Positions 493-55,156 of a stretch of DNA of 64,000 bases are shown one piece after another. Location: contig CM067367.1 of assembly GCA_034401795.1 (NCBI GenBank), forward strand, positions 50,842,363-50,906,362, given 5' to 3'. Origin of the DNA: Chaetoderma sp. LZ-2023a. Taxonomy: Eukaryota; Mollusca; Caudofoveata; Chaetodermatida; Chaetodermatidae. The notes under the pieces were generated by a model that made no database searches, was not told the origin of the DNA, and saw only the letters and a list, made by a program, of their open reading frames with translations. The translations under genes were made by a program, and so were the position numbers. Position 1 is the stretch's first letter. Each line of letters starts with the position of its first letter.

Positions 493-1928
493 TGTTTTGA
501 GGTTTATTCTCTTAGCCAATGTAGTCCAGTTCAATTGTTTATACAGTTGTTCAGTTGGTTCTCTAAAAGGGGCATCTAGTATTATACGAGCTGCTCTCTT
601 TTGTAGTTTTCCCAGCTTGTATAATAATGTATCAGTTGAATGATAGTAGATGAGAGAGCAGTAATCTATATGTGAAAGGATGTAAGCTTTATATAATAGA
701 TTCATTTGATCAACATTCATATAATTCTTGTACTTTTTCAACATGTATATTAAGGAAGACGGGGTTTTTTTTACAGAATTTACTTATGTGTTTCTTGCCA
801 TGAGAGTGTACTATCAATGTGTGGGCCAAGGAGTTTATCCGATTTTACAGTATTTAAGTTTCCATTTTCAGTAGGTATTACAATATCTGTTGTTATGCTC
901 TTCAATTTGTGATTAGTGCCAAGTATCATCAGTTTACTTTTATCCTCACTAAGCAACATTTTGTTATTTAAACACCATTTCTGTACAGATTTCATATCTT
1001 TTGTTAACTGTTCTTGTATTTCAGAGGTGTTTTGGGATGTTAACATGCAAAGTAGTATCATCAGCATACATATCTATATTACTAGATGTACAGAGTGGAA
1101 GGTCGTTAATATATAAGATAAATAAGAGTGGACCTAACACTGATCCCTGCGGGACTCCGATGTGGGTTGATACATGTTTAGAGATCTTTCCAGCAATTGA
1201 GACATATTGCTGCCTATCGGTTAAATAAGACGAAAACCATTTTAGTGATCCTGTTTCAAATTTATATATGGCAAGCTTTTGCAAGAGAATATTATGATTT
1301 AAAAGATCAAAGACTTTTCTTAAATCTATCATGATAGCTCCTATGAGATCACCATTGACTATTGAAAATCGCCACTTTTAACAAGTTTTAATAAAGCTGT
1401 TTCGCATGAGTGTTTTTGTCTAAAGCCTGACTGTGACGCATTCAGTAACCCATTTTGACAGAGAAATTTATAAACATGATCATGTACATGGCGTTCAATA
1501 ATTTTAGATATAGCTGGTAGGATTGACATTGGCCTATAATTGCATACATTGTCTTTGGAGTCGGATTTGTGTAGGGGTATAACTTTAGCATGTTTCCACA
1601 CTGCTGGAAAGGCTCCAGAATCTATACTCTTGTTTGTGATGCTTGTGATAGGTGGGGCTATGACATTTGCTGCGATTTTAAGAAAATAAGCATTAAGATC
1701 ATTATATCCAGCTGATTTATTTGTCTTTAGATTCTTTAGTTCATTATGTACGTAATCTACTGAAATACATGGTATTTGAAATTTGATGCATTCTGACACT
1801 TTACTATTTACATGTTTTCTTAGTTCACTAAATTCTGTATCTGCTTGTGGTATGGATTCAGCTTCCTTACCGTCATTATCGCGTAGAAAGGTAGGACATT
1901 TGTTAGCCTTTGGGTTTATGCTCTTCAA
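493..1928 (-). pseudogene. LINE ORF2, reverse transcriptase region (frameshifted)
   Basis: The reverse transcriptase is spread over several frames on the minus strand. Residues from 1359-1928 give the fingers (NKSAGYNDLNAYFLK, IPLHKSDSKDNVCNYRPMS, SQSGFRQKHSCETALL). 1021-1332 gives the palm (DLRKVFDLLNHNIL, GVPQGSVLGPLLFILYIND, and the catalytic YADD at about 1057-1068). 780-1067 gives the segment after the active site (KWCLNNKMLLSEDKSKLM). 493-744 gives the thumb (SHIDYCSLIYY, LQKRAARIILDAPF). After NLKT the frame enters the microsatellite. Order and motifs fit a CR1/L2-type enzyme. At least three frame changes are needed to read it through. Confidence 0.88.
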
Positions 1929-1966
1929 GATTTTCCATATATTGGCAGGATTGTGTTTACCTTCAT

Positions 1967-3879
1967 CTAGCTTTGCCCTAAATAGTCCTTTTTAAATGTT
2001 TCTATCTGTGCCATAACTTTATTCTTTAAGTCTTTGTAGTTTGAAATATTTCCTGATACCTTCTGGCGATCTCTTTCTTTCATTGTATTAAAAATATCTT
2101 TGTTTATCCATCCTGGTTGGCAAAATCTTTTAACCTTCCGTTCAATGATGGGTGCATGTTTGTTTAGTATATTTGTGAATATTTTCTGCCATTTTTCAAG
2201 AGCCTGATCAGGGTTATTTAATTCATCCACAAAACTCCAGTCATATGCTCGAAGATGTTGGACAAACATATTCTCGTCAAAGTGCTTAATGCTGCGATAC
2301 TCAATAATTTGATTTACATTTTGATTCTTGGAAACTTTACTGTTGCGTACTGTGAAGACTGGATAGTGGTCACTAAATGCTAGTGTCCCTACTTGTGTTG
2401 AATGATATTTGTCCTTGTTTGTTACATAAACATGATCTATCAGTGTCGCTGTTTTGCCAGTAACCCTAGTAGGTATATTTACAAGCTGCTCAAGGTGATA
2501 AATTTTTGTCACTGATTGCCATTTAGTGTTTGTTTGCTTCAAAATATTAAAATTAAAATCGCCTATGAGTGTAATATCAGAGTTTTCTGAATAAGCAGCT
2601 TCTAGCAGTGATTCAAATTCATCTATCCAACTAGCTGGACTGTTGGTGGTTTGTAGACACAGCTAATTAGAAACGGTTTCATTTTGTATGGTCTAATTTC
2701 TAACCAGGCAACTTCTATGTTGTGTGTTTCTAAGTCAGCTCGTCTAATATATGACAGGTTGTCAGCTATATACACTACAATACCCCCACCGTCACACTTA
2801 ATTCTGGCTCTGCGCTGTGTATTATATCCCTGTATTTCAATTACTGTGTCCGGGACTGTATTACTTAAGCAAGCCTCTGTGAAACAAAATATTTCTAATT
2901 CTCTCCTACGGTTCACCATTATAATAATTTTTAATTGTGAAATTTTGGGAACTAAGTGTTGAACATTTAGGTGGCCAATACGAAGACTCTTACTATTAAT
3001 ATTGAAAGATGGAAAGTCAAGGGACATAACTGTTTCTATAAATTTGTCATTGCATCTCGTCAGTAGAATTGATTCCAGTGCATTATTAGAATTATTGTCT
3101 AGTTGACCAATTTCTCCACTGGTTATGCAGTAGGAGAAGACATTAAAATAGTTTACAAAGCTATAGCCTACATGCATATAATCAAGGATGTTTATATAGT
3201 TCAAATATGAATTAGCATTATTATTATTATTATCATCATCATCATCATTACCACCACCACCACGACCACTACCACCACCACCAACACCACCACCCACCAT
3301 TCCCATCCCCACCACCACCACCGTTACCACTACTCCCATCCCCACCACCACCATCATTATCATTGTTATTATAACTGTTATCATCATCATCAGCATCATC
3401 ATCATTATCATCATCATCATCACCATCACGACCACCACCACCACCACCACCACCACCACCACCACCACCACCACCACCACCACCACCACCACCACCACCA
3501 CCACCACCACCACGACCACCGGCACGTATTGATTACTGAGTATTATATTAGAATCATTTGGATGTACAATACACAAAGTAGACTCATCATTACATATGAT
3601 AGATACTGAGTTAATATTGAAAATATTATTAGAGGGGCTCACATCAGGAAAATCTACATTGTGTTGTTTCATACATAATAGAGTATCAGTGCTTACATTT
3701 GTGGTACAGTCAGTGGCAACATTTAAATCTGTGTTAATCTGTACATTACCGTCGCGGTTATTTATGCTGCTAGCATGATAATTGTTCACAGTTATAGTTC
3801 TATTAGGGTTGATAGGCGTGAATACATCTGTAGCACAAGCAATGTGGCTGGCGTAATATTCAGGATTGTTGGCTGGCAC
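1967..3879 (-). pseudogene. LINE ORF2, AP-like endonuclease region (frameshifted)
   Basis: The first part (frame 2623-3879, 418 codons) has a linker, then long poly-Val/Met/Asp/Asn tracts that are translated triplet microsatellite, then the N-terminal half of an exonuclease-endonuclease-phosphatase fold: RIGHLNVQHL, FCFTEACL (catalytic Glu), and a DGGGIVVYIAD segment. A frameshift near 2623-2640 moves the frame, in which GDFNFN can be read at about 2560-2600. The second half continues in 1967-2542 with ATLIDHVYV and FSDHYPVF, the SDH block that ends this nuclease. The remaining ~120 residues are the linker to the reverse transcriptase. Such endonucleases nick target DNA to prime reverse transcription. 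At least one frameshift makes this copy inactive. Confidence 0.85.
3210..3520. repeat. Triplet microsatellite (ATC/ACC)n inside the LINE
   Basis: Runs of ATT, ATC and ACC triplets occupy the linker between the zinc knuckle and the endonuclease. Because the unit is three bases, the reading frame stays open and encodes long Val, Met, Asp and Asn runs. It is almost certainly a secondary expansion and not native LINE sequence. Confidence 0.9.
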
Positions 3880-4023
3880 AGCTTCTTGACCACATTGCTA
3901 ATGATGTACTGTACACCGGTTTGACTTATGGCCAGATTTGTTGCATCTCCAGCAGTGTACAGGCTGACCATGGCGACACTGTGAATGTTTGTGGTTTGGT
4001 TCACCACAAAATTTGTACGTTGG
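3880..4023 (-). pseudogene. CCHC zinc-knuckle segment between LINE ORF1 and ORF2
   Basis: After the ORF1 stop the same minus-strand frame encodes a clean C-x2-C-x4-H-x4-C knuckle, CWRCNKSGHKSNRC, at 3913-3954. Just upstream is a second knuckle in which the first Cys appears to be Tyr (YKFCGEPNHKHSQC). A TAG stop at about 3898-3900 separates it from the endonuclease frame, which is also in phase. Zinc knuckles bind nucleic acid in gag-like and ORF1 proteins. One frame therefore spans ORF1, knuckles and endonuclease, interrupted only by one TGA and one TAG. Confidence 0.75.
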
Positions 4024-4923
4024 ATTTCAGATGATCGCTACATAGTCATTAATGCACTTTACTAGAACAGATATCCCATATTTATTTAAGTGGAGTATGT
4101 CCGCATAGTATAAGAAGCTGTCTATCAAACCAGGTTTATATAAGGAATAGAAATATCCACTAGACTGAATCATTGAAAAGTTAAGGAAATGCTGTCGAAC
4201 CTCAATATGCTTGTTAAAATTTCGAATGAAATCCTGTCGACCGCGAACATCATCACGTGGGCACAGCTGGCATACATGTATCGTACACTTAGGGACGAGA
4301 GACTGAACGTCGCTAATCAAGTTCTCCATCGCATTAAGTCCATCGCTTAATGCGCCATCACAATTGTTAGTGCCGGCCATTATAACAATATCCTTATATG
4401 TGTGCAAGTCAATGCTCAGAAGAGTTGAATGAACATCTTCAATTTTTGCACCTCTGAGGCATATCACTTCCACCGTATCCTGTAGTCCCTTGGAATTTAC
4501 ATGTTTTATTATAGAGCTCCCTATAATCAGAGTCTCTTTGGAGTTGTCATTGCTTACTAGTGGTGGCTGTGTAGCATTCTTAGCCACATTTCTGCTATAT
4601 TGTGGTTTACGCATATGGTATGACGGTTGTGCCTGTGTAGGTGGTTCATGCACATTTATTGTAGCTTGTCGTTTCTGAAATTGTTTTGAGAGCCTTGGTG
4701 CTGGGACCGGTTTGTCTACGACACAATCTGTTGGTGATTTCCTAGAAGCAGCTTTACAATTAGCAACAGGTTCTACTATAGTAACTGTTTCTGATGTAGC
4801 AACTGTTTCAGGAACAGCTACTCTAGGTTCACCAATGACTTCTGTCATAACACCTACATCTGTTGTTGTTTTAGTGACATTTGTTTGAGTCAATAATAGC
4901 AGGACACTGCAGGACGATTGCAT
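4024..4923 (-). CDS. LINE ORF1: SGNH/GDSL-esterase domain protein
   Basis: This is an open frame of 298 codons ending in TGA at 4024-4026. The N-terminal ~125 residues are Thr/Val/Pro-rich and probably disordered. Residues 130-298 carry the blocks of an SGNH hydrolase fold: LIIGSSIIKHV (131-142, nucleophile Ser137; the usual Asp of GDS is Ser here), MAGTNN (182-187), and a C-terminal D-x2-H pair (Asp275, His278). Such esterases occur in ORF1 of CR1/L2 LINEs, where they are thought to act in the ribonucleoprotein or at membranes. The ATG at 4923 lies at or just beyond the junction with hAT sequence, so the first ~10 residues may not be native. The same reading frame continues past the TGA into a zinc knuckle. 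The product name is secure; activity is not. Confidence 0.8.
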
Positions 4924-6570
4924 CGTTGTTTTCTACGAGTTGGAAGAAGCGACGTGAACTAAAGGAAGCTCAAGAGGACCTCAATTTGCCACAGCATCAA
5001 TTGATCACGGTAAGATATTAATCGTTTAATGTGATAGATAAATTGGAAATAGTCAATGACAGCAACATCTTTCAGTCAAATTATTTCCGAAATATTCAGC
5101 AGATCATACAGGCAAAAGCTTTGATATAATGGTTATGGGGTTTGGGTTTTAGGATTGAAAGGGTAGTAAAGCGTTGCGACTACTCGTCTTGTGTTGATAT
5201 CTGCTCTATATATATTGAATGCGCCTAATTAGGCATTAAGTGTTAACCCATTTATGCCCAAGTTAAGCTATCAAAATTTCAATTTACTAAAAGAAATATC
5301 AATCGAGAACAATAGGAGATTATTTTTCAAAGTTTACGACTAATGTGACTGGTTCGATTATCAAGCCAGTCATTCCAGTCGTAAAATTTCAAAAAATATT
5401 CTTTCTCTGTAAAGCGATATTTCTCAAGGCTCGACCTGGCAGTGTATAACCAATAACCGTTATTTGAGTAATTTAAATGCTAATTTTCTCAGAGAAAATG
5501 TCTATTTACAGACTAGGAGGATACAGTTTACGACTGTAACGACTGGCTGGATCAGCGAATCGGTCATTTCAGCGGTAAAGATTAAAAAATGGCTTCTTAG
5601 TCTGTAAATATTCATTTCCTACAGTAAGTTCGGACAGCCAGTGTATAAACAATGTTACTTAAGTCTTTATTGCTCTATTGTTTGCAGGATTGCCAGACTC
5701 GCTGGGGATCAAAGTATTCCATGATCAAGCGTATTATAGAACAGGAACCGGCAATACGTCGTGTGCTGCGCGATGACCGTAATACAGCACATTTGTCCCT
5801 AACTTGTCATGATATACAAGTACTAGACGACGTGTCTGCTGCCCTGGAAACTGTAGGAGAATTTACAGATGTGCTTTCACAGGAGAACCACGTAAGCGTG
5901 TCAACGTTAAAACCATTATTATCGTTACTTTCCAATGATATATTGGATTCAAGTTCGCCGGAAGAAAAGGTGCACGCGTTGACAAAGCGTATCAGGGGTG
6001 CGATTAAGATATCCATAGAATCGCGTTATTTCGGCCAGGATGATAAAATTGTGATGATCGTATCAACATGTGTACATTCTTAGACCCAAGGTTTAAAACT
6101 CAATATTTATCTGATAGTGAGTTTAGTCAGGTTAAAGAGCGCATAATTCAGGAAACCGATTTACATGTTCATAGTGACGATTCCTCAAACGAGCAAGCGA
6201 CGCAGAAACACACCCCGTCAAAGAAAACTTTGTCAAGCTTACTCTGGAAATTGTCCAAAGGTCGCACTGAGAGTTCACCAAATGAAAATCCTGTCATTAG
6301 TCCGATCGAAAGAGAAATTCTTTCATATCTCGCCGCTTCACAACCTGACGAAGATGCGAACGTTTTGGAATGGTGGAAGGGTCATAAAAACTTTTCAGAG
6401 TCTTAGCACATTTGCTAAGAAATACCTATGTATAACGGCAACCAGCTGCCCGTCTGCACGTCTTTTTAGTTAAATCTGGTCAGATTGATACACCCAAACG
6501 GGCATGCTTAAAACCGGATCTAGTTAATCAGTTATCGTTCCTGTCCTGTAATTTAGTACAGTATTAGATA
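4905..6570 (+). pseudogene. hAT transposase, C-terminal two-thirds, spliced and frameshifted
   Basis: An upstream exon (about 4905-5009) encodes TIASLFSTSWKKRRELKEAQ and continues to HQLIT. A GTAAGA donor at 5010 and a TTTGCAG acceptor ending at 5687 define a 678 bp phase-0 intron. The next exon starts DCQTRWGSKYSMIKRI and continues through AALETVGEFTDVLS, then TFLDPRFK (after a frameshift near 6068), EREILSYLAA..VLEWWKGH, SLSTFAKKYLCI (after a second frameshift near 6388) and ATSCPSARLFS, the hAT C-terminal dimerisation block. A third break lies at about 6473; the end KRACLKPDLVNQLSFL follows in a shifted frame to about 6565. This matches ZBED1-like hAT transposases. The N-terminal BED finger and first catalytic part are missing, apparently because the LINE at 493-4905 sits there. 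Three frame breaks make it a pseudogene. Confidence 0.88.
5243..5640. mobile_element. Palindromic TTAA-ended MITE (family P), two units, in the hAT intron
   Basis: Two imperfect palindromes, 5292-5426 and 5487-5622, sit inside the hAT intron. Each has a stem of about 55-60 bp with a core of the type GACTGG..GAT..CCAGTC, A/T-rich flanks and outer arms ending near TTTCTC. The left flank begins TTAACCCATTTATGCC at 5243, which resembles piggyBac-like MITE ends. Related units are at 6821-7032 and 45050-45242. No coding capacity. Confidence 0.65.
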
Positions 6571-8660: not shown

Positions 8661-8787
8661 ATTGGATCGTAATGATATTACATGCGAGTGTCTTAGAATT
8701 GCTTAATAGAAGGATTATGAGAAGGCGAGCGATTATGATTACGATTACATTAAAACATTTGCATCTATGGCCGATAACTGCCTCTAG

Positions 8788-8957
8788 TAGTGCAGTCTGT
8801 TAGCACGAAAACTGGTAGAATTATGCAAAATGTGATACCAGCAATACGCTTGGCACAAAGTAAAGGCACTCTGCCTAGAATATATTTAGCTACAGAGCCA
8901 AGTTAGGTAAGCCACCATTTAGGAGTATGACGTCATCATTCAAGATGTCCGCCATCT
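8788..8957 (+). repeat. Left terminal inverted repeat of the unclassified transposon
   Basis: It begins TAGTGCAGTCTGTTAGCACG. Shared blocks with the right end, read inward, include TGCAAAAT-TGATACCA, CTTGGCACA, TTA/TTAAGCTACAGA and TATGACGTCATMAT. There is a ~12 bp indel near position 20. Identity is about 70 percent by eye. Confidence 0.8.
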
Positions 8958-9121
8958 AGGACAAACAAGTTTTAAAAAGACCACATATCCCTTATCTTGC
9001 ATCTACTAGATGTTGTATTTTGCTGTATATGTATGTGCAGAATACTTTCTGTAACAAATCCTTTAATATAAAAAGGATGTATGACCAAATTTAATGATTT
9101 ACCCACTTCCAAACCCATTAG

Positions 9122-9325
9122 GGGCGTGTGATTTCTTTATATTTCGATATATCGGGATATGATAAAATATTGCGATATTTTACTGTACAACGGCTTCCAG
9201 TCAAATAAATTTCTTAATGCCCTATAGAATATAGTCTCATGATACCATAGCATATGATATATTAGTATATTTTCTGTATGATATATCGTGCTATTGTATG
9301 GCAAAATATCGCACATCCATACCCC
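9122..9325. mobile_element. Possible small hAT-like MITE
   Basis: GGGGCGTGTGAT near 9122-9133 is roughly mirrored by ATCGCACATCC near 9307-9320, with an A/T-rich interior full of CGATAT and ATATCG words. hAT-type MITEs often start with a similar GTGTGCGAT word. The target duplication is not clear, so this is only a candidate. Confidence 0.3.
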
Positions 9326-9540
9326 AGCACCATCTGTATGTCTATCCTTGAGTTTTCTATAACTGTAACGTGTTAAATATGTTTACAATGTGTGACCCAT
9401 CCAATTCTCGTAAGCCATGTTGTCAAATGTTATAAATGTTAAATACTAACTGCATAGTGGGTATCTCAATATATGGCAAGTCAAATGTTGAGGTTAAATA
9501 GAACAGTTCTTGATTAATGGCCTGCCGTGATGTCCTAGCC

Positions 9541-9875
9541 AATGAATCGTGATAATGAAGTGTTATTTAAATCAATCTACAGCACGGAGTATGATACTGA
9601 AGGTTAGAAGACTTTAGAACAAGATGCATACTTAATATAATACAATTACATGGCCCCTACACTAGTACATCCTCACGAGAACACTGGACGTCACGTGTAC
9701 ACAGATTGGTACACAACGAATCGTGATAATGAAGTGTTATTTAAATCAATCTACAATAAGAAGTAGAACACCATCTGCATACTTAATGTAATACACTTCT
9801 ATTTGCCCTACACGAGCACATTCTCACGAGAACACTGACCGTCACATGTGCGCAGATTGGTACACAGAAGAGCTG
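9541..9875. repeat. Two-unit direct repeat (~175 bp period)
   Basis: Both units begin GAATCGTGATAATGAAGTG (near 9544 and 9720), continue ATTTAAATCAATCTACA, and end with CTCACGAGAACACTG followed by GATTGGTACACA. The second unit has a short internal deletion. It lies inside the unclassified transposon, downstream of its gene. Confidence 0.88.
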
Positions 9876-9976
9876 GATTTACACATTTACACAACTTAGT
9901 ACACCACACTTTATAAGTGCAATGTATCAACTCATAACAGTGACTAGATGCTTCTGGCAGGTTTGTCCAGAGAGGC

Positions 9977-12900
9977 CTAAATCCAGATCCACATTGTTGC
10001 CATCACCAGGTGGTAACATTTGGTATTGTAGGTAATCTGCGTGAGACAATGTGACCAGACGTAGCCGGTTTGTAAAACAGCTTGCATGTTCCACCAGTGC
10101 TGCTTCAGTTGGAGGTATATTGTATATCTGACGATTCTTCTACGTAAACAGAATTTGTCTGCATTTGTTGACTTTGTTTGACGAAATTGTTCTGCCATAC
10201 AGGAGGACGACGATATACCGTTCTATCTTGTTCATGTGGCAATCCTGAATTTCTGTTGGACACTGTGACAAAAGACTGAATGTATCCGTAATCTCAGAAA
10301 ACACCTTCTAGACATCCATGCTGTTTTCTTGCCACGTCCTGCAAATATGGAGACGGTGTCGCAGGCGGTAAATGCATGCCAAAATGGCATAGCTGCACAA
10401 ATGCAAGGACCGAACGTCTGGAAATGCTGGTGAACTGGGAGGTATCGTCTATTCTTATCTGCACCAAAGTCAACCCACAACTCATCTATATTCAATCTGT
10501 GAAAGACCAACACCGCCAAAACAACGACACCTGAGTAAACAGTTATAATGAGGATTTTTCGATGACCATCTTTGGCTGCATGTCCAGTACATCTTTGGCT
10601 GCATGCCCAGAATGCAAGAGGATATGCGTGTCCTCTTCTCCATGCTGACATGGTGACAGTTCTTCGACGGTACGAATAGTGGAGGATGATATAACTGTGT
10701 CAACATAAGTACAAACAATGGTCCATGTCTGGGATTCCACTTTAGCCATGTCTTCTGCTAGTAGCTTGAACAGAGCTCTCTTCTTTGTTTTCTTCAATGT
10801 GCAGAAACACCTTCCAATCGTTTGGAACTGGTGATGTACGTGTTACTTTAAATCGTTTTCCATTACCCCGCTTTTCTCTCGACTCTGTCTTCAAGCTTCC
10901 TGAAAGATACCTATCAAATATGATATCAACACGAGATGCTGAGCTACACAGTTTCAAAATAACTGGTCGGAAGACACTCGGACTATATTGACCAAAAGTG
11001 CCAGGGGCTGTCATGTGTATGGCAGCTTGTTCATCTATTATAACTGCACCTGCCTGCGGCGCCAAAGTCGCTGTTGTCCCGGAATTTTGTGAACTGATCA
11101 TGATATCAGAATTGTTGCCCTTTCTTAGTTTTCCATAATCCGAAATTGACGGCGGGTATGAGTGATTTTCATGGCTGAAAAGATCAGACAGATTCCCTTG
11201 TCTTGTCTGACAAGCAACAAACAATCGCGAAAACAACTGCCAATCTTGGGACAAAACAGCAACCTTAGACTTAGCCTTTGAAGTCAATCGCATGCTTGGT
11301 TCTCTAAACAAAGACAGTTTGTTCTTATGGATTACATCATGAACAGAGCTTTTACATTCTATTAGTCTATCTTAAATATATGTATGGTACTGATCCTATC
11401 CAAGTCTATCTTAAATATATGTATGGTACTGATCCTGTCCAAGTTCTTCAGCTTCTCTAACAGACTTAACCGCTCCATCACTCATTATCCTTTTACTCAC
11501 TAACGAAACTAGAATGTCACTTTCTTGAAAAGGATTTCCTTCACTCTCAAGAACATTCACAAAGTTTGTTACATGCTGTTGGTAACGCCTTTCAAATGCG
11601 TTGGTATCTTCATGCAGTGACTCATCTGATCTTCATCTGACGTGACAGGTTTCTCTCGGAATTCATTTACCATTTTAGCAATTTGTGGTCCTGCAACCAT
11701 CCACTTTAAGAGTGCACCTGGGCTGTCAAGCAAACCAATAGCATCACCATCAGTCTTGACGGTCTTGTTATTCTGCTCGTGGGCATGATCATCTGATATA
11801 TAGAAAAACGGTCGATCTGTCTTCTGCGTTACAAACTTCCCATTGATGAACTTCTCATGAGCACCAGGATGTCGTACTCTTAATTTCAGCAACGTTTTGA
11901 TAAACACTGGCAGCCATCTAGTATAGTGGATATGATCAAGTGCAAAGATCCATTGGCAGATTTGTATCAAGTCATCCAAATACATCATAAAATCTGCTAT
12001 CCGCAAACTGTTCACCAAGATTAGGAGCAATGTCTGTAACAAAATGATTTGATACCAGAATAAGATTGGACAGAATTACTTGATCTTTTCTCAATCCATT
12101 CACTGAAACATAACCCACTCTCACTATCAGCGTCCAGGTCTTCATAAGAAGGGTGTATAAGCCGGCAACTTACACCTGATGCGCGTACCTTGCACATTTA
12201 ACATGGGATCGGCATAGAAACGTTGCAATATCTGCCTGGTCACTCGTCACCACAATGGTTAATTTGGGTTCACCTTGGAAAGTGCTGATTGGATTAAATT
12301 CATTGTATGGCGAACCATCGCCGGTGTCTGTACATGTTCGTTCAGCAGAAGCAGCATAACGGATAAACACATTATGCTGTTTCTCTATCTTCCTGCTGTG
12401 CATAAAATGCAGCCCACGAAACTTTGGAATCGTCACTGTTCTCATCACTCAAGACACATTTTAACCGACCAAGCTATTCTGAAGATTCGCTGAAAGGTTC
12501 GGAGTGTGCAATAAGAACTGGGGTGTTTATCATTGGAACGGGCGACTCAGCTTTGATTAGTCCAAACATTGGAGGTAAGCTTGTGTATGACTACGGAAGA
12601 AAAGCATTCGAAGTTGTACATGACATTAGATCGACATGTGAGTTGTTTGTTATTGCATGATCAGAATGCTGGATGAGTGATATGCCGTACCATGGAATGA
12701 CGCAGTGGATGTAGCAGAAGGAGGATTGTGATCTATATTATCTATCGCAACTGTAGTGAATACTCCGCTTTGATGCTCAGGTGGGCAAAAAATGTTGCGT
12801 TTTGAGTATTGAACACAAAGGGCATTTGTAACCGTTGATGAGATTTCTTGCACACGATTATATGAGACACAAAGACCAAGTTTAGAAAATTTGTCAATGA

Positions 12901-12987
12901 CTCCCCGTTTTCTGATTTTTGTATACAGCATCAATGCAATGTAAAGAGCCACTGGCGTTTCTACATTGTTACCATGTAGATATATAT
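9977..12987 (-). pseudogene. Unassigned multi-copy transposon gene, C-terminal part (copy 1)
   Basis: Pieces in several minus-strand frames line up in one order. 12987 (after a TTTCATTGCAG acceptor) to ~12660: ALYIALMLYTKIRKRGVIDK, GLCVSYNRV, CPPEHQSGVFTT, AIDNIDHNP, SFHGT. ~12170-12280: FLCRSHVKCARYAHQV. 11569-12130: FSEWIEKR, FALDHIHYTRWLPVFIK, DHAHEQNNKTVKTDGDAIGL, KWMVAGPQ. 10742-11442: LFSRLFVACQTRQGNLSDLF, HENHSYPPSISDYGKLR, SRVDIIFDRYLSGSLK. 10232-10797: GEEDTHILLH, VVVLAV, FHAFTACDTVSIF-like WHAFTACDTVSIFAGRGKKT. 9977-10198: a Trp-rich tail. From memory this order matches large uncharacterised predicted proteins repeated in cnidarian, mollusc and lancelet genomes. The E-E-D..H, hydrophobic VVVLAV and H-A-F-T-x-C-D motifs resemble PIN/FEN-like nuclease spacing. 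The expected D-T-D before VVVLAV reads Y-S-G here. It is a pseudogene lacking its N-terminal half. Confidence 0.7.
11365..11442. repeat. 39-bp tandem duplication inside the unassigned gene
   Basis: Two nearly identical 39 bp units (one substitution) abut. 39 is a multiple of three, and on the minus strand each unit encodes LGQDQYHTYI followed by a stop and DR, so a 13-codon segment including its stop was duplicated. Confidence 0.9.
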
Positions 12988-13465
12988 CTGCAATGAAATA
13001 TAAATTCAGTTAGATTTGGCTTATAGTCAAAGTTATAATAATAATAATATGTAAATTGTTCAGGTAGAGATATAGTATAATGATCTGTCAATATTCATCC
13101 ATGTTGTACTTACAATGAGCTCCAAAATGGAGGGCAAGTCTTCACATAACCGGGCAGAATATTGACAAATCATTATAACGCATGTGCACACGTACATGCA
13201 TACATCTGCATACACACAGACACAATGAACTCCAATGAATTTATGGTTTGGAGCCTGATACTATTAGATGAAATGTTTCAGGTGAAATGGCGAAAAGATA
13301 CAATGTTCATTCGTTTCAACATTTGACCTTGACATGTGCTTGACCTTTGATATGACACCGACGCTAAGGCATATGATGATGTTCATGACACAGGACCCAC
13401 ACTATATGCACTGGTTTAATTCATATATTTGAACAAATATTGAGATATGTATATATTTTTATCAC
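12988..13465. other. Transposon interior without recognisable coding
   Basis: Between the right terminal repeat and the splice acceptor at 12988-12990. A/T-rich, with a short (ATA)n run near 13030-13048. It is probably the remaining part of an intron whose upstream exons were deleted. Confidence 0.5.
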
Positions 13466-13626
13466 GTACCACAGCCATATTGGATTATGACGTCATACAG
13501 CCAAAAGGAGGATTGGTTAGCTTGGGTCTGTAGCTTAATTTCATCCTGCCCACGTGCCCTATCTGTGTGCCAAGTGGCATGTTGGTATCATATTTTGCAC
13601 GATTCTTATGTTAACAGACTGCACTA
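13466..13626 (-). repeat. Right terminal inverted repeat of the unclassified transposon
   Basis: Read on the minus strand from 13626 inward it begins TAGTGCAGTCTGTTAACATA and continues through TGATACCAACATGCCACTTGG, AGCTACAGACCCAAG and TATGACGTCATAATCC, paralleling the left end. A TAG target duplication follows at 13627-13629. Confidence 0.8.
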
Positions 13627-13639
13627 TAGGGGAGGGCTC

Positions 13640-24710: not shown

Positions 24711-25230
24711 AGGCCTATGTGGTCCAGCATAATACCGTAGACCTACGTAATATACTATTTTCAAATAATGTATGTTCCACGATAATTTACAAAACCGCTA
24801 ATGAAAGTAAATCGAAATGTTTTTTAGTGAACATAACTAAAATTACTAATGTTTGTGTCGTCTGCTCAAACTAATCTAATCATATTACATAAAATAATCA
24901 AATGAGCTAGAATAGATGCAATATTTTTCACACACAATTAAAGCAAAGTAGCCGACATATAATAGAATAGCGCTAGGGATTTAGAGTTTTCTGTCATACG
25001 TGCATACCGTATTGTGTTTTATTACTGGTAATCTAGTCATCTATCAAAAAATGGATGAACGATGGCTGTTTAAGTTTATTATATAATTTCCATTTATTGA
25101 ATAAGACGTCACCCCACGCACCCACCTCCCACTATGGTCATTTTACCATGTCTAAAAGCTATACATTCGTGACTCCATCGACATCACGGGACACACAATA
25201 TCGCGTAGATGGCGCTATCAGACAAACTGG
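24711..25230. other. No recognisable gene
   Basis: A/T-rich DNA upstream of the second unassigned gene copy. It was searched for the terminal repeat of the 8.8 kb transposon (TAGTGCAGTC); none seen. Confidence 0.5.
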
Positions 25231-25233
25231 AAA

Positions 25234-28200
25234 ATGTGCGTGCTCTGTCAACTGGACAGTTATGAAAGGCTTGTCTACCCAGATAAAAGTAGAAAGAAGT
25301 CACCAGGATATGAACATCTTGCACAAAATATAATCCAGTTCCACACCCTGAGCGCTGTTCTTATAAATATTGATACATCTGGGCTCGATGACGGTTCACG
25401 TGTCTGTCAGACATTTCAAATTAGCAATGCTTGTTGGCATAAATCTTGTTGGTTGCTATTTTGTTACATGAAATTGCAGCGTGCTCTGAATATTGCCACG
25501 AGAAAGAGAAAGCAAACTGAAAATATTGACAAACCTAGTCCGGTTAAGACAAGAGTAGTCATGGCAACAACGGTTGTATAGTGCTCAACAAGATACAAAA
25601 ATGTTTTTCTGTCACAAGACGGATGAGAAAGAACATCTGCACAGTGCTGCTACAGCCAATATAGATGCAACAGCTAGGGAATGTGCTACAGAGTTAGTTA
25701 CTTTTAGCAAAGTTGGCAGCTAGTGATATCGTTGCAGTCGACGGCATGTATCATTTGACTTGCCTAACTGAGTTGCGAAAGCGTCTAAGAGCTCATAAAC
25801 GTGAGTGGTATAGAGAAAAGACAGAGTCATCTGTAGAGGCTTTGGTGTTCGGGAAACTAGTTGTCTACATTGAAGACATTCGCCTGGATGAAACAATAAT
25901 TCAAACTTTCGGAACTTGTAAAAACGTATCAAACTAGGTTGAGTGAACTAGGATCAGACGAGGTGCAGACTAGCCATGTCCATTCCACAAGATTGAAGGG
26001 CAGGTTATTATTTCAGATTCCAGATCTAAGAGCAGAGCAACAAGATAGAGGCGTTTTGTTACTTTTCAACAATGACATCGGACCTGCGATCAAACGGGCT
26101 GTAGCAGAAGATATGGACAGGGATGCAATGCATTTAGTTAGGGCAGCACAAATTATACGCAAAGACATGTCTGAGAAAGCATATGAATTTACATGCTCTT
26201 TGGAACAGGTGTGAACGTGAAGCAGTTCCTCAGTCCCTTAATGCACTTGTGCGAATGATTCTCGAGGGCTCGAATATTTTTTGAACATCAGAGTCACGCA
26301 CATACCACAAAAGAGAGAACTGCGCTAGCTCTTTCAGAACTTTTACTGTTCAACAGTGTAAAGCGATCACGCATTTCATATGGCATCCGACACAATAAGG
26401 CAAGAGAGGCACCATTGCCTATCTATCTCAGCATGCTCATCCATGCTAAAACGCGAAAAAGAGATCTGATAGATAGACTTCACCAATTGGGATTGTGCAT
26501 TTCATATGATAGATTAATAACAATCTCAACTAACATCACAAACGCTATCTGTGCCAAGTACCATACAGAACAGCGTGTGTGTCCTCCTCAGCTCAAGGGC
26601 GGTCTATTCACTTGCAGTGCAATCCTAGTGCTCGTACTTCACAGGACTCCTTTCACGAGACAGCGATGTCGTTGATGCAGTTCGCAACAGAAGACATACC
26701 AGGGGATCACAGTAGAGCTGGGCGGTATTGATATTTACATGACGGTATCGGTACCATGCAAAAATACCGCGGTACCACGGTATGCCGTCATCTGAGCTTG
26801 AGGCATGCCACGAAATTAGAAAAAAAATGTCCATTTCCTTTTCACTTCCATCTCCAATCAACGGTAAACATAGGTAAAATAAATAAATCGGCTTCCTGAT
26901 TTAGAGAAGAAAAACATGGCTGTTTAGTTTCACGATTTTATTAGGTCACTATTTTTATTGACGTAATGTCATTCACGGGAATATCGGTCAAAGGGTGTGG
27001 TCGACTCGCTAACTATAACCCGCTGTTTGAGACATTGGGGTGCACTATTTTCAATCTCGATTGTTCTTGCTATTAATGCGTGCGACCAGCAAACGGTAAA
27101 TTGTATTTTGGAAATCGAGAGCTTTGATAAACAGAGTCCAGACAAAATCCGCGAGTATTTAAACGGGGCGAGTGTTGTACTCTTTTATTTCTGTTGGAGT
27201 CGTATATTCTGTTACTCGCGAAAACAGGCCTATACACATACAAATAACACGACATTGAATATAGCCAATTCCAAAGCTTCTGATAATTACCGAGTAACCG
27301 ATGTGCAGACCCGTTACTAGCCATGCTTCACGTGAACAATGCGTGTAAAAAGCTATTTCCGCGAACAATGAATTACAAAAACTAAAACACTATAATTTTA
27401 GGTGTCGTTACTTAAACTGGATTTAATCCTTAAAGAAATTTTTTTAAACAAGCCACAAAAATAAAAAAAATAACGACTTCAACGCTGCTCGTTGTTAATA
27501 AATTAGCACGTGATCAAAACGGCGCGAGCAAATACTACGTTTCAGCAAATGTTCATTGATAAATTGAGCATAGTAATGTATTTTTCCACGGTCTAGTTCA
27601 TGAACAACCAAAATTCTGTTCAAAAAAGCTGTTGTGTTTGAATAGCACGCAGTTTGTATGTTATTTTGTTATTCTAGCGTGTTTGTTCGGTGACACAATG
27701 CTTGGAGTAATACATTACAAATAATAGAAACTGGAATAGGGAATATATTATCGTGTAATTACTACCGGCGGACGGCCAGAGAAACAAAGCAATTTTACCG
27801 TGAGACTTTCAAGACGTACGTTTGACATACAATTCTGCCTGTCATTATTTTGTAATTGACGTCTTGATGTTTGTTTTTACAACGACCCTCTCACCTCAAC
27901 TCGGCTAATAGTTTGGGATGCCTGTATTTTTTACACTATTAGCACCTGTTTACCCTTGGTCAAGTAAGATTTTATGAATATATTTCTCAAATATTGCTCA
28001 AACATTATGGACGGTATTCACGGTATTTGGAAATGTCAACGGTCACGGTATCGGTTCACGGTATACCGCGGTCCTCACGGTACTACCGTCAGACCGCCCA
28101 GCTCTAGATCACAGTCTGGTTAATGAAAAGACAATTGCTCCACTTCCAGCCAGTTATACCATAGAGTTGTACCTCCAGCTACTAAAACTTCTGATGCTAT

Positions 28201-29136
28201 TGTGCCTGTCAGACAAGGAGCCCTAAACCCTGACCCAATCATGATCAGTGAAGATGATGAGGAATGGGCTGCATATCATATAAGTCAACAGCCTCAACTG
28301 AACAAAATGTTAACACATGTAGCGCTTCTTCCTCTGTTGTGTGAGAATGCCCACTCAACGTGTTTGATATTACATGCAATGAACATAATTAAACATGCAG
28401 TACATCACCTAAACCCGGAACAGATTCCAATAGTTGCTGCAGACAAGCCACTATTTGCTATTGCTAAACAAGTACAGTGGTCATGTCCAGATACTCATGG
28501 AGAGGACAAAATCGTGGTGATGATGGGTGGCATACATATGGAAATGAACGTTTTCTAAAATTACTCGGAGATTGGCCTCAGAGAAGTAGCTGGACAACAT
28601 CGCTAGTACAGGCTAACATTGCGACAACTGGGCGCACGGATTCTATGCTAACTGGCGCACATGTTACGCATAATAAACATGCGCACCACGTGACAGCAGC
28701 TAGTTTACACATACTACAACAACGTGCATATCAAAAGTATCTGCTAAGAGTACCAGTTGGGAAAATTGCGCTTTCCTTTGATGAATGGATCATTCTACAA
28801 TGTTCAGAGTAACCCCATTATAAACATTGGGCACTGACTCTGCAGTTGGAATTGATGCTGCTACAGTATGTTAGATCAATCCGTGAAAGAAATTTCCAGA
28901 TGTATGTCCCAATGCTTGTTACAGATAATTCCCTGGCTTTTCGCACTAAATCACACCACCTATGCTAGGTGGTTACCAGTGCATATCAGTGACATGACTA
29001 ATCTTTCTACAACACATCCTGAGGTGTACAAGCAGTTTGATAATGGACATTTTGCAATACAGAAAACCCAACATGTTTTTTTCAGCAATCTCCATCGACC
29101 AATGTCATAAACAAACCAATGCACTCATACCCTCTA
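25234..29136 (+). pseudogene. Unassigned multi-copy transposon gene, N-terminal and middle part (copy 2)
   Basis: Plus-strand pieces line up as one protein. 25234-25581: a Cys/His start (CVLCQLDSYERL and later CWHKSCWLLF) and a basic stretch. 25713-26214: HLTCLTELRKRLRAHKREWY, VYIEDIRLDETIIQTF, SHVHSTRLKGRLLFQIPDLR, GVLLLFNNDIGPAIK, HLVRAAQIIRKDM. 26415-26640: PLPIYLSMLIHAKTRKRDLI, GLCISYDRL, VCPPQLKGGLFT, the part shared with copy 1. A hAT element splits the gene at 26713-28106. It resumes APLPASYT, EEWAAYHISQQPQLNKML, NPEQIPIVAADKPLFAIAKQ, GEDKIVVMMGGIHMEM, GDWPQRSSWTTSLVQANIAT, HNKHAHHVTAASLHILQQRA, FALNHTTYARWLPVHISDM and ends SIDQCHKQTNALI at 29136, where DIRS sequence starts. Several stops and frameshifts. 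The role is unknown; the C-terminal nuclease-like part is missing here. Confidence 0.7.
26713..28106. mobile_element. Non-autonomous hAT element with perfect 8-bp TSD
   Basis: Starts TAGAGCTGGGCGGTATTGAT at 26713 and ends with ACCGCCCAGCTCTA at 28106, so the first 14 bases are perfectly inverted. It is flanked by GATCACAG at 26705-26712 and GATCACAG at 28107-28114. An 8 bp duplication and this end sequence are diagnostic of hAT. Subterminal regions are full of CGGTA/TACCG words, likely transposase-binding repeats. The 1394 bp interior has no transposase; a 107-codon plus frame at 26997-27320 has no recognisable motif. The insertion splits the copy 2 gene between codons for GDH and SLV. Confidence 0.93.
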
Positions 29137-30095
29137 CCATCTACCCTCCCTGGGCATTCCGACGCCTATCGTTGGTGGAAGGCTAATACGTTTCATCAAG
29201 GCATGGCGAGGTGTGACGTTAGACAGTCTGGTCATGGGATGGATATCTCATAGATACATAGCAGAATGGTGGGACATCCCTCCACAAAATCTGTCTTTGG
29301 CGCCAGTCACAACTCCCATACCAAGGGAACCAGACAAGTTAGAAGCCATTCAATACGAAGTGTCAGGCTTGCTTCTGAAGGGAGCAATAAAGCCACCAAA
29401 CCAGCACACTCCGCACTTCTATTCAAACATGTTCCTTGTTCCCAAGAGCACAGGGGGTGGAGATCCCATACTCAATCTCAGGCCATTGAATTGGTTCATC
29501 CATATGCCTCGATTTAAAATGGAAACACCTAGGATGCTAATGGCGGGATTGAGGAAAAGAATGTGATGTGTATCAATCAATCCGAAAGATGCATATTTCC
29601 ACATTCCAATAAACAAGAGCTGTCACAGGTTTCTGCGATTCACGTTTCAGAATCGTGTCTGTGAGTTTGTTGTGCTCCCATTTGGCCTGTCGACAGCTCC
29701 AAGGGTTTTCACCAGAGTGGTCTTAACAGTGCCAGCGCTTTTCAGAAAAGAGAATGGGGCGCTTCACACATACATAGACGATTGGCTTGCGATTCGATCT
29801 GGAGAAGGGCATTGTTTATCCATCAGAGCCGAGGCTCGGCTCGTTGCACGCCAGTCTCCAGAATTTCGAGTGGAAAAGCATATTCAGACAAGGAAGTTTC
29901 TTCAGATGCTGGGCATGATGGTCTCCATGGAGCAAGTGTTCCCGTACGCTGCTCTAATGCAAAGACCTATCCAGTTGTATCTGATGTCTCTGGGGAAACA
30001 GAAAACAGACCTCTTGTCAAAACCCGTACCAGATTTGGAGTCGATTATGACGCATCTTGCATGGTGGAAGGAGCGTCAGAATCTCCTAGTAGGAG
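29137..30095 (+). pseudogene. DIRS reverse transcriptase
   Basis: From about 29145: SLGIPTPIVGGRLIRFIKAW, WWDIPPQNLSLAPVTTPIPR, GAIKPPNQHTPHFYSNMFLV, KSTGGGDPILNLRPLNWFI, FKMETPRMLMAGL. After a TGA near 29564 and a frame change come SINPKDAYFHIPI, RFLRFTFQNRVCEF, LPFGLSTAPRVFTRVVL and the catalytic TYIDDWLAI (about 29770-29796, Y-I-D-D). These are DIRS-type RT blocks. The sequence continues TRKFLQMLGMMVSMEQVFPY. The stop and frameshift indicate decay. Confidence 0.85.
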
Positions 30096-30725
30096 TTTCA
30101 CTTCACCCATCCACCCCAAGCTGTCCTTGTACACGGATACATCGCTGGAGGGGTGTGGGCCTGCCTGTGAGAACACCAGGTGTCGGGCACATGGACTCCC
30201 TTAGAGAGTCGGCTGCAAATCAATCTGTCACGGGAGGCACTATCACTGGAGAGGTTTCTTCCAGAAATCAGGGGCACGGTGATATTGATGCAGTCAGACA
30301 GGGGTGTCTCCGACACTGTGTATGAAAGTGTGTAACTTGATTCAATGGTGCAGGAATTACTCAGTTGTTTTGAAAGTAGCTCACATTCCTGGGTGATTGA
30401 ACATTCTGGTGGATGCTTTGTCTTGCAGACAGAGAATTCTGCCAAGAGAATGGTCTCCCAACCCTCCAGTTCTATAAAGGATCTTCGAGCATTTGGGGCA
30501 ACCACAACGTGGACTTGTTCACCACAAAGGAAAATTCTCAAATCATGGCTTATGTCTCGCTGATTTCGGAACCAAATGCTGTCGATACAGATGCTCTGCC
30601 GATAAGCTGGAAAGGGATGCACACGTACGACTACCGACACACCATCCTTCTCCCTGTTGGTGAAAATTTGAGAGGACCCTTGCCTGGTCCGGTTCACGGA
30701 GCTTCTGGATCTGTTGGTGGATAAT
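30096..30725 (+). pseudogene. DIRS RNase H and connector
   Basis: HPKLSLYTDTSLEGCGP (30111-30161; the D of YTD is the first catalytic Asp) opens the RNase H. The middle is badly broken. The end resumes as VLKVAHIPGWLNILVDALSC (about 30370-30425), PREWSPTLQFYKG, NHNVDLFTTKEN and NAVDTDALPISWKG. The last three are typical of the domain following RNase H in DIRS elements. RNase H would remove the RNA template during reverse transcription. Confidence 0.75.
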
Positions 30726-30794
30726 CCAATACAGCTGCCCAAGATTCCGAACATAATCTCACAAGCCAAGGGCCGCTTCCTACACGAGGGCCCA

Positions 30795-31835
30795 AAATTT
30801 TCAATTTGACTGCATGGATGTTATCAAACAACGTTCCACGTCAGAAGGCTTTTCTCAACATACTGCGAGTTTCATCGCAGCCGTGAGAAGGAAGTCAACT
30901 TTCAAGTCATATAACAACAAGGTTAGCAAATTTGCAGAATGGTGTAAAGGAAAGGATCTCGATCCCCTTCAAACCACTGTTTAGCAAATAGCAGACTTTC
31001 TCTGTGAGCTATTCTTTACTGGATTATCTCCCGTCACGATCGCTGGATATAAGTCAGCTTTGGCATCAGTTATCCCTTGTCTAGCCAACAGGGATCGTTC
31101 AGAGGTGACCAAGTTAAACGTGATGGTGAAGAGAATGCGCAATCTCCAATCGAGACAACCAGTAGTTATTCCAGCCTGGAGTCTATCTTTGGTGTTTAAT
31201 GTGCGAACCAAGCACACTTTCGAACCCATGGGGTCAGTTAGTCTAAAGCATTTGACTCTTAAGGCGGTCTTTCTAGTGGCAGCTTCCTCAGCAAGAAGGT
31301 GCAGTGAGATCCATGCGCTTTCAGCAGAGAATGACCGATTTATTTCTCTGGAGGTCTGTGACCGCTTCCAAGAGCAGAATTTCTGTCAAAGAACCAATCT
31401 TTGAAATATCCCGGCAAACCGATCATTTTACTGAAATTAAGTCGGTTTGATCATGATGTCAGTGCCTGATGTCCGGACCGTGCTTTGACTAAGTACAAGA
31501 AACGGATGGACTCTCTATGGTCAGATGATAGGCATCTGTGGATCTGCCATAAAAAGCATATGGCGTAGCACCCATGGATACAATATCTCGTTCGGTAGTC
31601 GAATCCATTCAGACTACCAACGAAATCGGGACCGGTCACCACGGGCAATGTGCCAGAGCCCATGATGTCAGAGGAAAGGCCACCTCGACTGCCCTATACA
31701 ATGGACAGCATGGCCCTTGCACAATGGCACTGTGAGTCCTCATTCACGGACTACTATATGAGGGATATGTCAGACTCAGCCAATCCTCTCACTTTAGCAG
31801 TATTAAACGCTAGATAATGGACCACACTGATCGTT
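30795..31835 (+). pseudogene. DIRS tyrosine recombinase
   Basis: The N-terminal core-binding part reads SFKSYNNKVSKFAEWCKGKD (about 30898-30955), QIADFLCELFFTGLSPVTIA, YKSALASVIPCLANRDRSEV and MVKRMRNLQSRQPVVIPAWS. The catalytic part continues KHLTLKAVFLVAASSARRCS (SARR contains the first catalytic Arg) and, in a shifted frame, ARAHDVRGKATSTALYNG (H-x2-R box, about 31650-31705) and FTDYYMRDM (likely nucleophile Tyr, ~31745-31775). This enzyme integrates the circular DIRS intermediate without target duplication. Stops and frame breaks show it is inactive. Confidence 0.8.
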
Positions 31836-50429: not shown

Positions 50430-50480
50430 GGAAACTGATCACACATCAATGTAGCGAGGCATCTTGGATCGTCTATCATC

Positions 50481-51507
50481 ATGGGCGAGAAGGTGGCCTA
50501 TATGAGCGTGCGACTGCCTAATAACACAACAAAGCAATACACTGCCCAGTATGATGTCTTCCTGAATGTAAGCCATGCTCAATCTAACAATATCTACATC
50601 GACTACCTAGACTTGTACGGTTATTTATCGTGGTATATCACCAAGCTAGTACCGTGTGTTGTCTTGATTATCGGAATCCCGGCCAATCTGTTAATCCTAA
50701 CTTATGTGATGCAGTCCGGAAAATATAGATCACCAACATTTCTCGCTATATCTGGCTTGGCTTTATGTGATTTACTCGGTTGTATTTCTGGAGTAATTTG
50801 GGCGAGTTTAATATTTCCGGTCATGCTTGTTCCTAAGCTGCCTTTCTTGTGTGGTCTTACTGTATTCTTCACGTATCTATCTTATTGCGCTAGTCTTCAT
50901 AACGCAGTGCTATTTTCTATACTAAGGTTTGCACAGCTAGCATATTCATTGAAGGCCCGCGCCAGGATAACCACGCGTCTGGTCTTGTCAGTATGTCTCG
51001 CTATATACGTTGCAAATATTTTAGCCACGATACCATTCGGCATATTGTTTAGACCACTGGAAGTCACGCGTAATGGTCACAATGTGTATATATGTGGGGT
51101 TTTCGGTGATTATTACATAAAGGATACAGTTCAGACAACACTATATGTTCCTGTTTCTATATTCCCAATGGTTTTCTTTCATGTTTTGAAATATTGTTCG
51201 CTAAAGCTCCGAGGGCAAGATCGATAGAGTCCCATCTTCCCGTAGTGGCAGTGGAGCAACTGGCGGACGCGCACTTAGTATTATTGTCATATTTGCCATC
51301 TTGACTAATCTGCTTGGATGTATACATGATTCTATGCACACTTACTTCAAATATTCATACCAGGCATCGCATCATCCGCTCTATGTTGGAGAACTGTATC
51401 TGGGTTTGTCCAACCCAACCCTTGATCCATTCGCACACTTGCTGTTTTCAAGAAGCATGCGAAACAAGATCTGGGCAATGTTTTGTCAGATTAAAGGTAA
51501 AAACTAA
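50481..51507 (+). pseudogene. Intronless rhodopsin-like (class A) GPCR with one frameshift
   Basis: The ATG at 50481 opens 248 codons. Extracellular N-terminus with N-glycosylation sequons at Asn14/15 and Asn29. TM1 ~57-78 (IIGIPANLLIL, the N of the GN motif kept), TM2 ~86-110 (LAISGLALCDLLG, Asp97 at the conserved TM2 site), Cys124 before TM3 and Cys205 in loop 2 (likely disulphide). TM3 ends ILRFAQLAYS where D/E-R-Y is usual, so Arg149 is kept. TM4 ~167-190, TM5 ~217-238. The frame stops at 51225-51227. A shifted frame (+1) continues from about 51205 with RALSIIVIFAILTNLLG (TM6) and LYVGELYLGLSNPTLDPFA (TM7, NPxxDPF for NPxxY) and ends at 51507. One indel in loop 3 separates the halves. It could be a recent pseudogene or an assembly error. 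The ligand is unknown. Confidence 0.8.
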
Positions 51508-52854: not shown

Positions 52855-55140
52855 CTAAGTCAGTCATCCAGACAGTCAGTTGGTCGGTCTGTCAGTGGGT
52901 GGGTGGTTCGGTCTGTCAGCCTGTCTGTCTGTCCGCTACTCATGCAGTCATCTGACCTATCAATCAAGCAGTCGGTCAAGCTGTCACTCATGCACTCATC
53001 CGATCTGTCACCCAGACTGTCAGTCTCTATTTATCATGCCACGCAGCCAGTCCGCCAGTCTGTCACTCATGCAGTCAGCTGATCTGTTACTCATGCAGTC
53101 ATCTGATCTGTCACTCAAGCAGTCATCCGATCTGTCACTCATGCAGTCATCCGATCTGTCACTCATGTAGTCATCCGATCTGTCACTCACGTAGTCGTCC
53201 GATCTGCCACTCATGCGGTCGCTCGGTTGGTCACTCGGTTGGTCGGTCAGTCGGTGGGTGGGTGGTTTGGTCCGTCCGTCAATCAGTCAGTTATGCACTC
53301 GTCCGATCTGTCACTCATGCAGGCATCTGATTTGTCATTCAGGCAGTCCATCAGTCTGTCACTCATGCAGTCATCCGATATGTCACTCATGCAGTCCATC
53401 AGTCTGTCACCCATAGTCATCTGATCTGTCACTCATGCAGTCATGTGATCTGTCACTCATGCAGTCCATCAATCTGTCACTCATACAGTCAACCTATCTC
53501 TCCCGCATGTAGTCATCCGATATGTCACTGATGCATTCTGTCAGTCCGTCACTCATGCAGTCATCCGATCTGTCACTCATGCACCAATCTGATCTGTCAC
53601 TTATGCAGTCCATCAGTCTGTCACTCATGCTGTCATCATATCTGTCATGTATGCGGTCCATCAGTCTGTTACTCACCCAGTCATCCTATCTGTCACTCAT
53701 GCAGTCCGTCAGTCTGTCACTCATGCAGTTATCCGATCTTTCACTCATGCAGTCATCTGATATGCCACTCATGCAGTCATCCGATCTGTCACTCATGCAG
53801 TCTGTTACTCATGCAGTTGGTCGGGCAGCCGGGCGGTCGGTTGCTTGCTCAGTTGGTCAGTCAGTGGGTATTGTCAGTCGGTGGGTGGGTGATTTGTCAC
53901 ATCAGCCTGTCCATCAGTCCGTCACAATGCAGTCATCATATCTGTCACTCATGCAGTCCATCAGTCTGTTACTCATGCAGTCATTCTCTGTCACTCATGC
54001 AGTCATCCGATCTGTCACTCATGCAGTCTGTCACTCATGCAGTTATCAGATCTGTCACTCATGCAGTCTGTCGGGCCGTCACTCATGCAGTTGCTCATCT
54101 GATCTTTCACCCGAACTATCGATCATGCAGTCGGTCGATCAGTCAAAAACAAACCAGCCTGCCCGTCAGTCCATCACTCATACAGCTATCAGAGCTGTCA
54201 CTCATGCGGTCTGCCAATCCGTCACTCATGCAGTCATCCGCTCTGTCACTCATGCATCCGATCAATCCATCACTCATGCAATCAGTCATCAGATTTGTCA
54301 CTCATGCAGTCGGTCAGTCATCCGATCTGTCACTCATGCTGCTGGTCAGTCGGTCGATCGACCGGTCATTATGTCTGTCAGTCCATCGTTCAACCGATCT
54401 GTCACTCATGCAGTTCATCATTCATGCAGTCGATCAGCCGATCTGTCACTCATGCAGTCAGTCAGTCATCTGCTCTGTCACTCATGCAGTAAGTCGGCCA
54501 GTCATTTGATCACTCATTCGATCGGTTGGTCGGTCTGTCAGCCTGTCCATCAGTCCATCACACATGCAGTCATCAGATCTCTCACTCATGCAGTCGATCA
54601 GTCCATCACTCATCCAGTCAGTCATCTGATCTGATGCAATAGGTTGGTCGGTCAGTCAGTCGGCCTGCCCATCAGTCCGTCACTCATACAGCTATCTGAG
54701 CTGTCACTCATGCAGTCTGTCAGTCCGTCACTCATGCAGTTGGTTATCCGATATGTCAATCATGAAGTCAGTCGTTCGGTTAGTCGGACTGTCTGTCAGT
54801 CCGTCACTCAGGCAGCCATCCGCTCTGTCACTCATGCATCCAGTCAGCCCATCAGTCATGCAGTCATCAATCATACGATCTGTCACTCTTGCAGTCGGTC
54901 AGTTATCCGATCTGTCACTCATGTTGTCGGTCCATTGGCTGGTCATTATGGCCATCAGTCCGTCCGCGATTCAGCCAACCTGTCACTCTTGCAGTCCGTC
55001 ACTCATGCAGCCCGTCAGTCTGTCAGTCATGGAGTCGCTAATCCGATCTGTCCCCCATGCAGTCGGTCGGTCATTCGATCTGTCCCTCATGCAGTCAGTC
55101 GGTCAGTCGATCGGTCAGTCAGCCATTTGTCATGACCGTC
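52855..55140. repeat. ~2.3 kb minisatellite based on a 24-bp unit
   Basis: The clearest unit is CTCATGCAGTCATCCGATCT plus GTCA (24 bp), in strict tandem at 53070-53215 and as 19-24 bp variants throughout. Interspersed GTCAGTCG / GGTCGGTC tetramer-like blocks suggest growth from a GTCA-type ancestor. Because 24 is a multiple of three and the unit lacks stops in some phases, it stays open for up to 370 codons (53522-54634), giving Ser-Leu-Met-Gln-rich repeats. Not a CRISPR array: no unique spacers and a eukaryotic context. Confidence 0.9.
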
Positions 55141-55156
55141 ATTCAACATATCTGGT

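Follow-up and report, generated by a model that had tools for sequence, protein, structure and literature searches.

A decayed transposon of probable AcademX kind, with 3-bp target duplications, in the mollusc Chaetoderma

The Academ superfamily of DNA transposons, with its AcademX lineage, is usually cited to Kapitonov and Jurka (2010) and to Kojima (2020), the latter reportedly on AcademH. The AcademX nuclease is of the XPG type; among the papers searched, none contains both whole words 'Academ' and 'XPG'. Target-site duplications are given as 3 or 4 bp for AcademX and 9 or 10 bp for AcademH, and a relation to 'helicase and nuclease' is drawn, in the part of PMC10045372 that deals with these groups. 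Academ also ranks with the richest DDE groups of bivalves, the curated elements having a mean length of 5565 bp, in the relevant section of PMC10294476. Here we describe a 4839-bp element in a stretch of 64,000 nucleotides (the window) from Chaetoderma sp. LZ-2023a (assembly GCA_034401795.1, contig CM067367.1, positions 50,842,363 to 50,906,362). We read it as a cut-and-paste DNA transposon of AcademX type that is no longer active, AcademX being compared by published description only, and put the probability of this reading at about 0.88.

The element occupies window positions 8788..13626 and is assigned to the minus strand, that of its gene; its extent is defined by its ends and their flanking duplication, by the recurrence of these ends and by empty paralogous sites. 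It terminates in perfect inverted ends of 15 bp, TAGTGCAGTCTGTTA, and inward of these the inverted similarity covers 97 of 132 positions (73%; BLASTN E 2e-10), in arms at 8817-8947 and 13476-13606. The left terminal inverted repeat (TIR; 8788..8957, plus strand), or L end, lies on the 3′ side of the gene, and the right one (13466..13626, minus strand), or R end, on its 5′ side. Flanks and empty-site comparison place the duplicated TAG at 8785..8787 on the left and 13627..13629 on the right, both unstranded. Ends, inward similarity and TAG flanks had been picked out by an earlier reading of the letters without database searches (the sequence-only reading); all were found where it had placed them, and the ends recur genome-wide. 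The element's own first letters are also TAG: copies whose termini are intact begin with TAGTGCAG, or with a close variant of it, and finish in the complement of that start. The TAG duplication is distinct from this TAG start, because other copies are flanked by AAA, ATA, TTT, GAC and TTT. A palindrome, TATGACGTCAT, containing TGACGTCA, lies about 140 bp inside both window ends (regions of 8925-8935 and 13480-13490), at equal distance in each, and is also present in several other copies; it is possibly a protein-binding site.

Both ends were searched for, as the sequence-only reading had proposed, in the window's own assembly (2.44 Gb; match counts are lower bounds), and they are not confined to this site: the left end has at least 38 matches and the right end at least 40 (55 candidates, 40 scored). 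Comparison covered 27 loci, comprising the window and 27 fetched stretches, two of which are halves of one copy (L009/L010, the C13 copy). One end of each kind is present in 15 of these, one of them (L029) now without its R terminus; two R ends occur at L031, and 11 loci are single-ended in the fetched stretch. With L015 and L016, which have common flanks, scored as one insertion, there are 13 independent insertions with both termini. Exact identity of the flanks extends over 3 bp in six of the 13 (TAG in the window, AAA in the C13 copy, ATA in L011, TTT in L014, GAC in L018 and TTT in L027), exact 2-bp identity is seen in 3/13, and identity over 4 to 10 bp in none. The seven insertions lacking an exact 3-bp duplication are L012, L013, L015/L016, L017 (caa/taa), L028, L030 (gac/gat) and L040. 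When the left flank of each locus was compared with the right flanks of other loci as a control, 4/156 pairs matched at 3 bp, against which 6/13 has a binomial P of ~4e-8. The target duplication of this family is a real 3 bp. Among 13 copies for each end, L ends are on average 88% identical and R ends likewise 88%, with L030 as an outlier at 72-75%; the family has therefore undergone no recent burst.

Further evidence comes from the repeat into which the window copy was inserted. The 350 bp to the left of the insert match ten places in the genome, the window included, and in all nine others the match to the left flank is followed downstream by one to the right flank. At the junction, read out in five of the nine, there is a single TAG in L047, L048, L049 and L052, and TAT in L045. 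Three bp were duplicated on insertion, because uninterrupted copies of the host repeat have a single TAG where the window has TAG-insert-TAG. Besides the TAG on both flanks, the sequence-only reading had pointed to a gag frame that rejoins when the insert and one TAG are removed. That argument is weak on its own, since the host frames are badly broken, and it is the empty sites that bear out the conclusion. Its naming of the host as a gypsy gag-pol could not be confirmed, as a Pfam search with eight pieces of the host gave no relevant match.

The gene within the element belongs to a family whose members, of ~1,370-1,570 amino acids, occur in Hydra, Capitella, Mytilus, a crab, a beetle and thrips. 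These relatives have, in this order, a predicted RNase H fold bearing a DDE set, an EXO1/FEN1/XPG-like nuclease and a cysteine-rich CXC-like tail. The best fold match of the core's predicted structure is P-element transposase; the VIA list for the core holds 30 DDE rows, together with 16 for HIV reverse transcriptase (an RNase H fold), two for condensin and one each for Argonaute and CtsR. The D-D-E set is conserved in intact relatives, and the nuclease part combines an EXO1/FEN1/XPG fold match with catalytic acids conserved in relatives. On these predicted folds and residues, the proteins of this family combine a DDE transposase with a FEN/XPG-like nuclease. The statement of the sequence-only reading that the gene lacks nameable transposase motifs does not hold for the intact relatives, and, of its two proposals for the gene, passenger or transposase, fold and conserved residues bear out the second. 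P element, Transib, Hermes and RAG1 are DDE transposases with a helical insertion, and their PDB chains have no sequence match to the window family; they have duplication lengths other than 3 bp, and we know of no FEN/XPG-like part in any of them.

Foldseek gave no match at E<=0.001, a PDB sequence search with a 34-member profile none at E<=1, and Pfam no useful match for four pieces of the window gene. When the 34 relatives were searched at E<=0.1, ten Pfam families were matched, among them no named transposase family and no helicase. A match common to 13 of the 34 is to DUF6589 (PF20231; best E 1.1e-8), a family of unknown function; in P0023 it spans residues 752-944 and profile positions 222-407 of 410. 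From this we infer a link between DUF6589 and Academ. Members of the protein family are filed as 'uncharacterized' or, like P0040 and P0046, under the source name 'Tesmin/TSO1-like CXC domain-containing', and twice, in thrips, under unrelated names.

In the window, frameshifted remains of the putative transposase gene extend over 9832..12961 on the minus strand. On the same strand lie a DNID motif with the putative first catalytic D at 12731..12742, the putative second D (TSDQ) at 12239..12241, directly before a 190-bp deletion, and the putative catalytic E (DxxHEQNN) at 11776..11778. They are followed, again on the minus strand, by the first nuclease acid, the D of an LDGA-like IIDEQAA, at 11033..11035, a decayed nuclease motif at 10529..10537, which reads TVYSG here as against TVDSD or TVDTD in relatives, and, at 10358..10360, the D that ends the set of nuclease acids, in a GCD motif that reads ACD here. 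The cysteine-rich CXC-like tail, a motif seen by eye on the translation, lies at 9832..9921, also on the minus strand. Compared with L016, the window copy is missing ~1.1 kb at ~12960, in the 5′ part of the gene, and ~190 bp at ~12222-12232, immediately behind the second D. To judge from its deletions, frameshifts and lost nuclease residues, it is dead and makes no working protein; both of its ends are good, and protein supplied by another copy or source might still move it.

Each of the 15 copies that have both an L end and an R end contains pieces of the same gene, reading from R end to L end, and no other gene was found in them. At the 11 single-ended loci, gene pieces are present in seven fetched stretches and absent from four; L031 has a 64-residue piece. 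The check suggested by the sequence-only reading, whether full-length copies hold an intact version, returned this gene in every copy with an end of each kind and no intact version among the copies examined; even in L016, at 6195 bp the most complete, the gene is frameshifted, and ~165 bp present in other copies are missing. That some copies must then have been moved by protein from elsewhere would suit a different explanation, in which some other transposase moves the element by its ends and the gene rides along, either as a passenger or as a host gene that was captured together with its CXC and XPG parts. We consider this very unlikely and dropped it on gene content and predicted fold, the gene being the sole one in 15/15 copies and its core agreeing with DDE transposases in fold and residues.

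Several defective copies have deletion junctions in common. In L016 element coordinates, L012, L013, L014 and L040, which lie on different chromosomes, share the internal junction 650|2776 (646 in L013), and a second junction, 707|about 2994, is common to the C13 copy and L029; an exact 3-bp duplication is present in two of the six, the C13 copy and L014. As four insertions carry one junction, defective copies probably moved too; on the simplest reading, the deleted forms were themselves mobilised in trans, though shared junctions could also arise by gene conversion or duplication.

The family is assigned to AcademX because a 3-bp duplication, a DDE enzyme and a nuclease together make up the published AcademX pattern: its duplication falls within 3 or 4 bp, and both a predicted DDD/E transposase and a predicted nuclease are found in the element's own protein. 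AcademX elements are the same type of TIR DNA transposon, with the same duplication of 3 bp (3 or 4 bp in the part of PMC10045372 concerned) and the same make-up of DDE-type transposase and nuclease. Size is within range, the 6195 bp of L016 comparing with the mean of 5565 bp given for bivalve Academ in that section of PMC10294476. AcademH belongs to the same superfamily by name but differs by its 9 or 10 bp duplications and its helicase, as described in that part of PMC10045372; here 0/13 insertions match at 9 or 10 bp, and Pfam finds no helicase in the 34 relatives. The TIR transposon with a 3-bp duplication announced by the sequence-only reading therefore stands, whereas its 'unassigned superfamily' does not, and the element looks like a new family within the already known Academ group.

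Besides the want of an intact copy, it counts against this assignment that Pfam recognises neither the nuclease nor the CXC part in the 34 relatives and matches no named transposase in them, and that Academ is matched by description, not by sequence. The missing transposase match and the comparison by description would favour a separate superfamily outside Academ, with a DDE core, a CXC-like tail and a 3-bp duplication, that gained its flap-type nuclease independently of AcademX. We regard it as very unlikely, given that duplication length and the pairing of DDE enzyme with nuclease both agree with AcademX as published (PMC10045372, in the part concerned).

Membership of another 3-bp superfamily (CACTA/EnSpm, PIF-Harbinger or Zator) would explain the duplication length, and the TAGTG...CACTA ends appear CACTA-like at first sight; we hold it to be extremely unlikely. 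CACTA elements start with CACTA, the 5′ end being CACT(A/G), and end in TAGTG. Copies whose termini are intact show the opposite order, and CACTA/EnSpm was dropped as copies start with TAGTGCAG or a close variant, not CACT(A/G). PIF-Harbinger targets the 3-bp sequence TWA and was dropped because none of the six duplications (TAG, AAA, ATA, TTT, GAC and TTT) is TWA; Kolobok, which duplicates TTAA, was dropped as well, the duplications being different and 4-bp flank matches 0/13. To our knowledge no FEN/XPG-like nuclease occurs in CACTA/EnSpm, PIF-Harbinger or Zator, and no Pfam transposase family, of these or others, is matched by the 34 relatives. Zator combines a 3-bp duplication with an ISAzo13-related transposase in the corresponding part of PMC10045372; the duplication is compatible, and the relatives show no ISAzo13-type Pfam match.

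For AcademX-type movement of this family we propose that the transposon protein would first recognise both TIRs, and that the DDE core, its chemistry suggested by fold and residues, would then free the element and join its ends to the target at a 3-bp stagger, repair fill-in leaving the observed 3-bp duplication. The nuclease might trim flaps or gaps remaining from excision or insertion. Internally deleted copies would be moved in trans by protein made elsewhere, a step supported, though not proven, by the common deletion junctions at different sites. The window copy was inserted into an older repeat and decayed afterwards. The value of the finding lies mainly in annotation: animal proteins filed as 'uncharacterized' or CXC would be a DDE transposase with a FEN/XPG-like nuclease, to which the window family adds ends, duplications and empty sites. 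EXO1, FEN1 and XPG nucleases have a counterpart here as one predicted part of a transposon protein. The role of a flap-type nuclease in transposition, possibly including help in setting the 3-bp stagger, becomes a concrete question.

Another gene of this protein family, truncated, lies at window 25219-29086; the fetched proteins most similar to it share 41-45% identity with it. The kinship proposed by the sequence-only reading thus holds for the protein and fails for the element family: the second gene has no DNA match to the element at 9.9-13.6 kb and a single 50-bp match to L016, and no inverted repeats were found around it at 24.0-29.2 kb. Directly after it, 29111-31404 contains a reverse transcriptase piece (Pfam RVT_1), with a tyrosine-recombinase-like frame, seen by eye, downstream; this region probably represents a DIRS-like element by which the second gene was truncated. 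The C13 copy also has an element nested inside it, with open frames of 681, 802 and 989 amino acids and, in one scanned piece, weak similarity, below the cut-off, to the N-terminal domain of phage integrases; by eye it appears DIRS-like.

Elsewhere in the window, LINE-like pieces at 1359-4932 (minus strand) have weak RVT_1 and GDSL-lipase-like matches, both below the cut-off. A hAT-like transposase fragment was seen by eye at 5649-6473, two pieces of which have no Pfam match. A rhodopsin-family receptor frame (7tm_1, E 1.4e-11) is present at 50439-51227, and the long tandem-repeat frames at 52956-55196, with 'SVTHAVIRSVTHA'-like repeats in several frames, appear by eye to be a minisatellite and not a gene.
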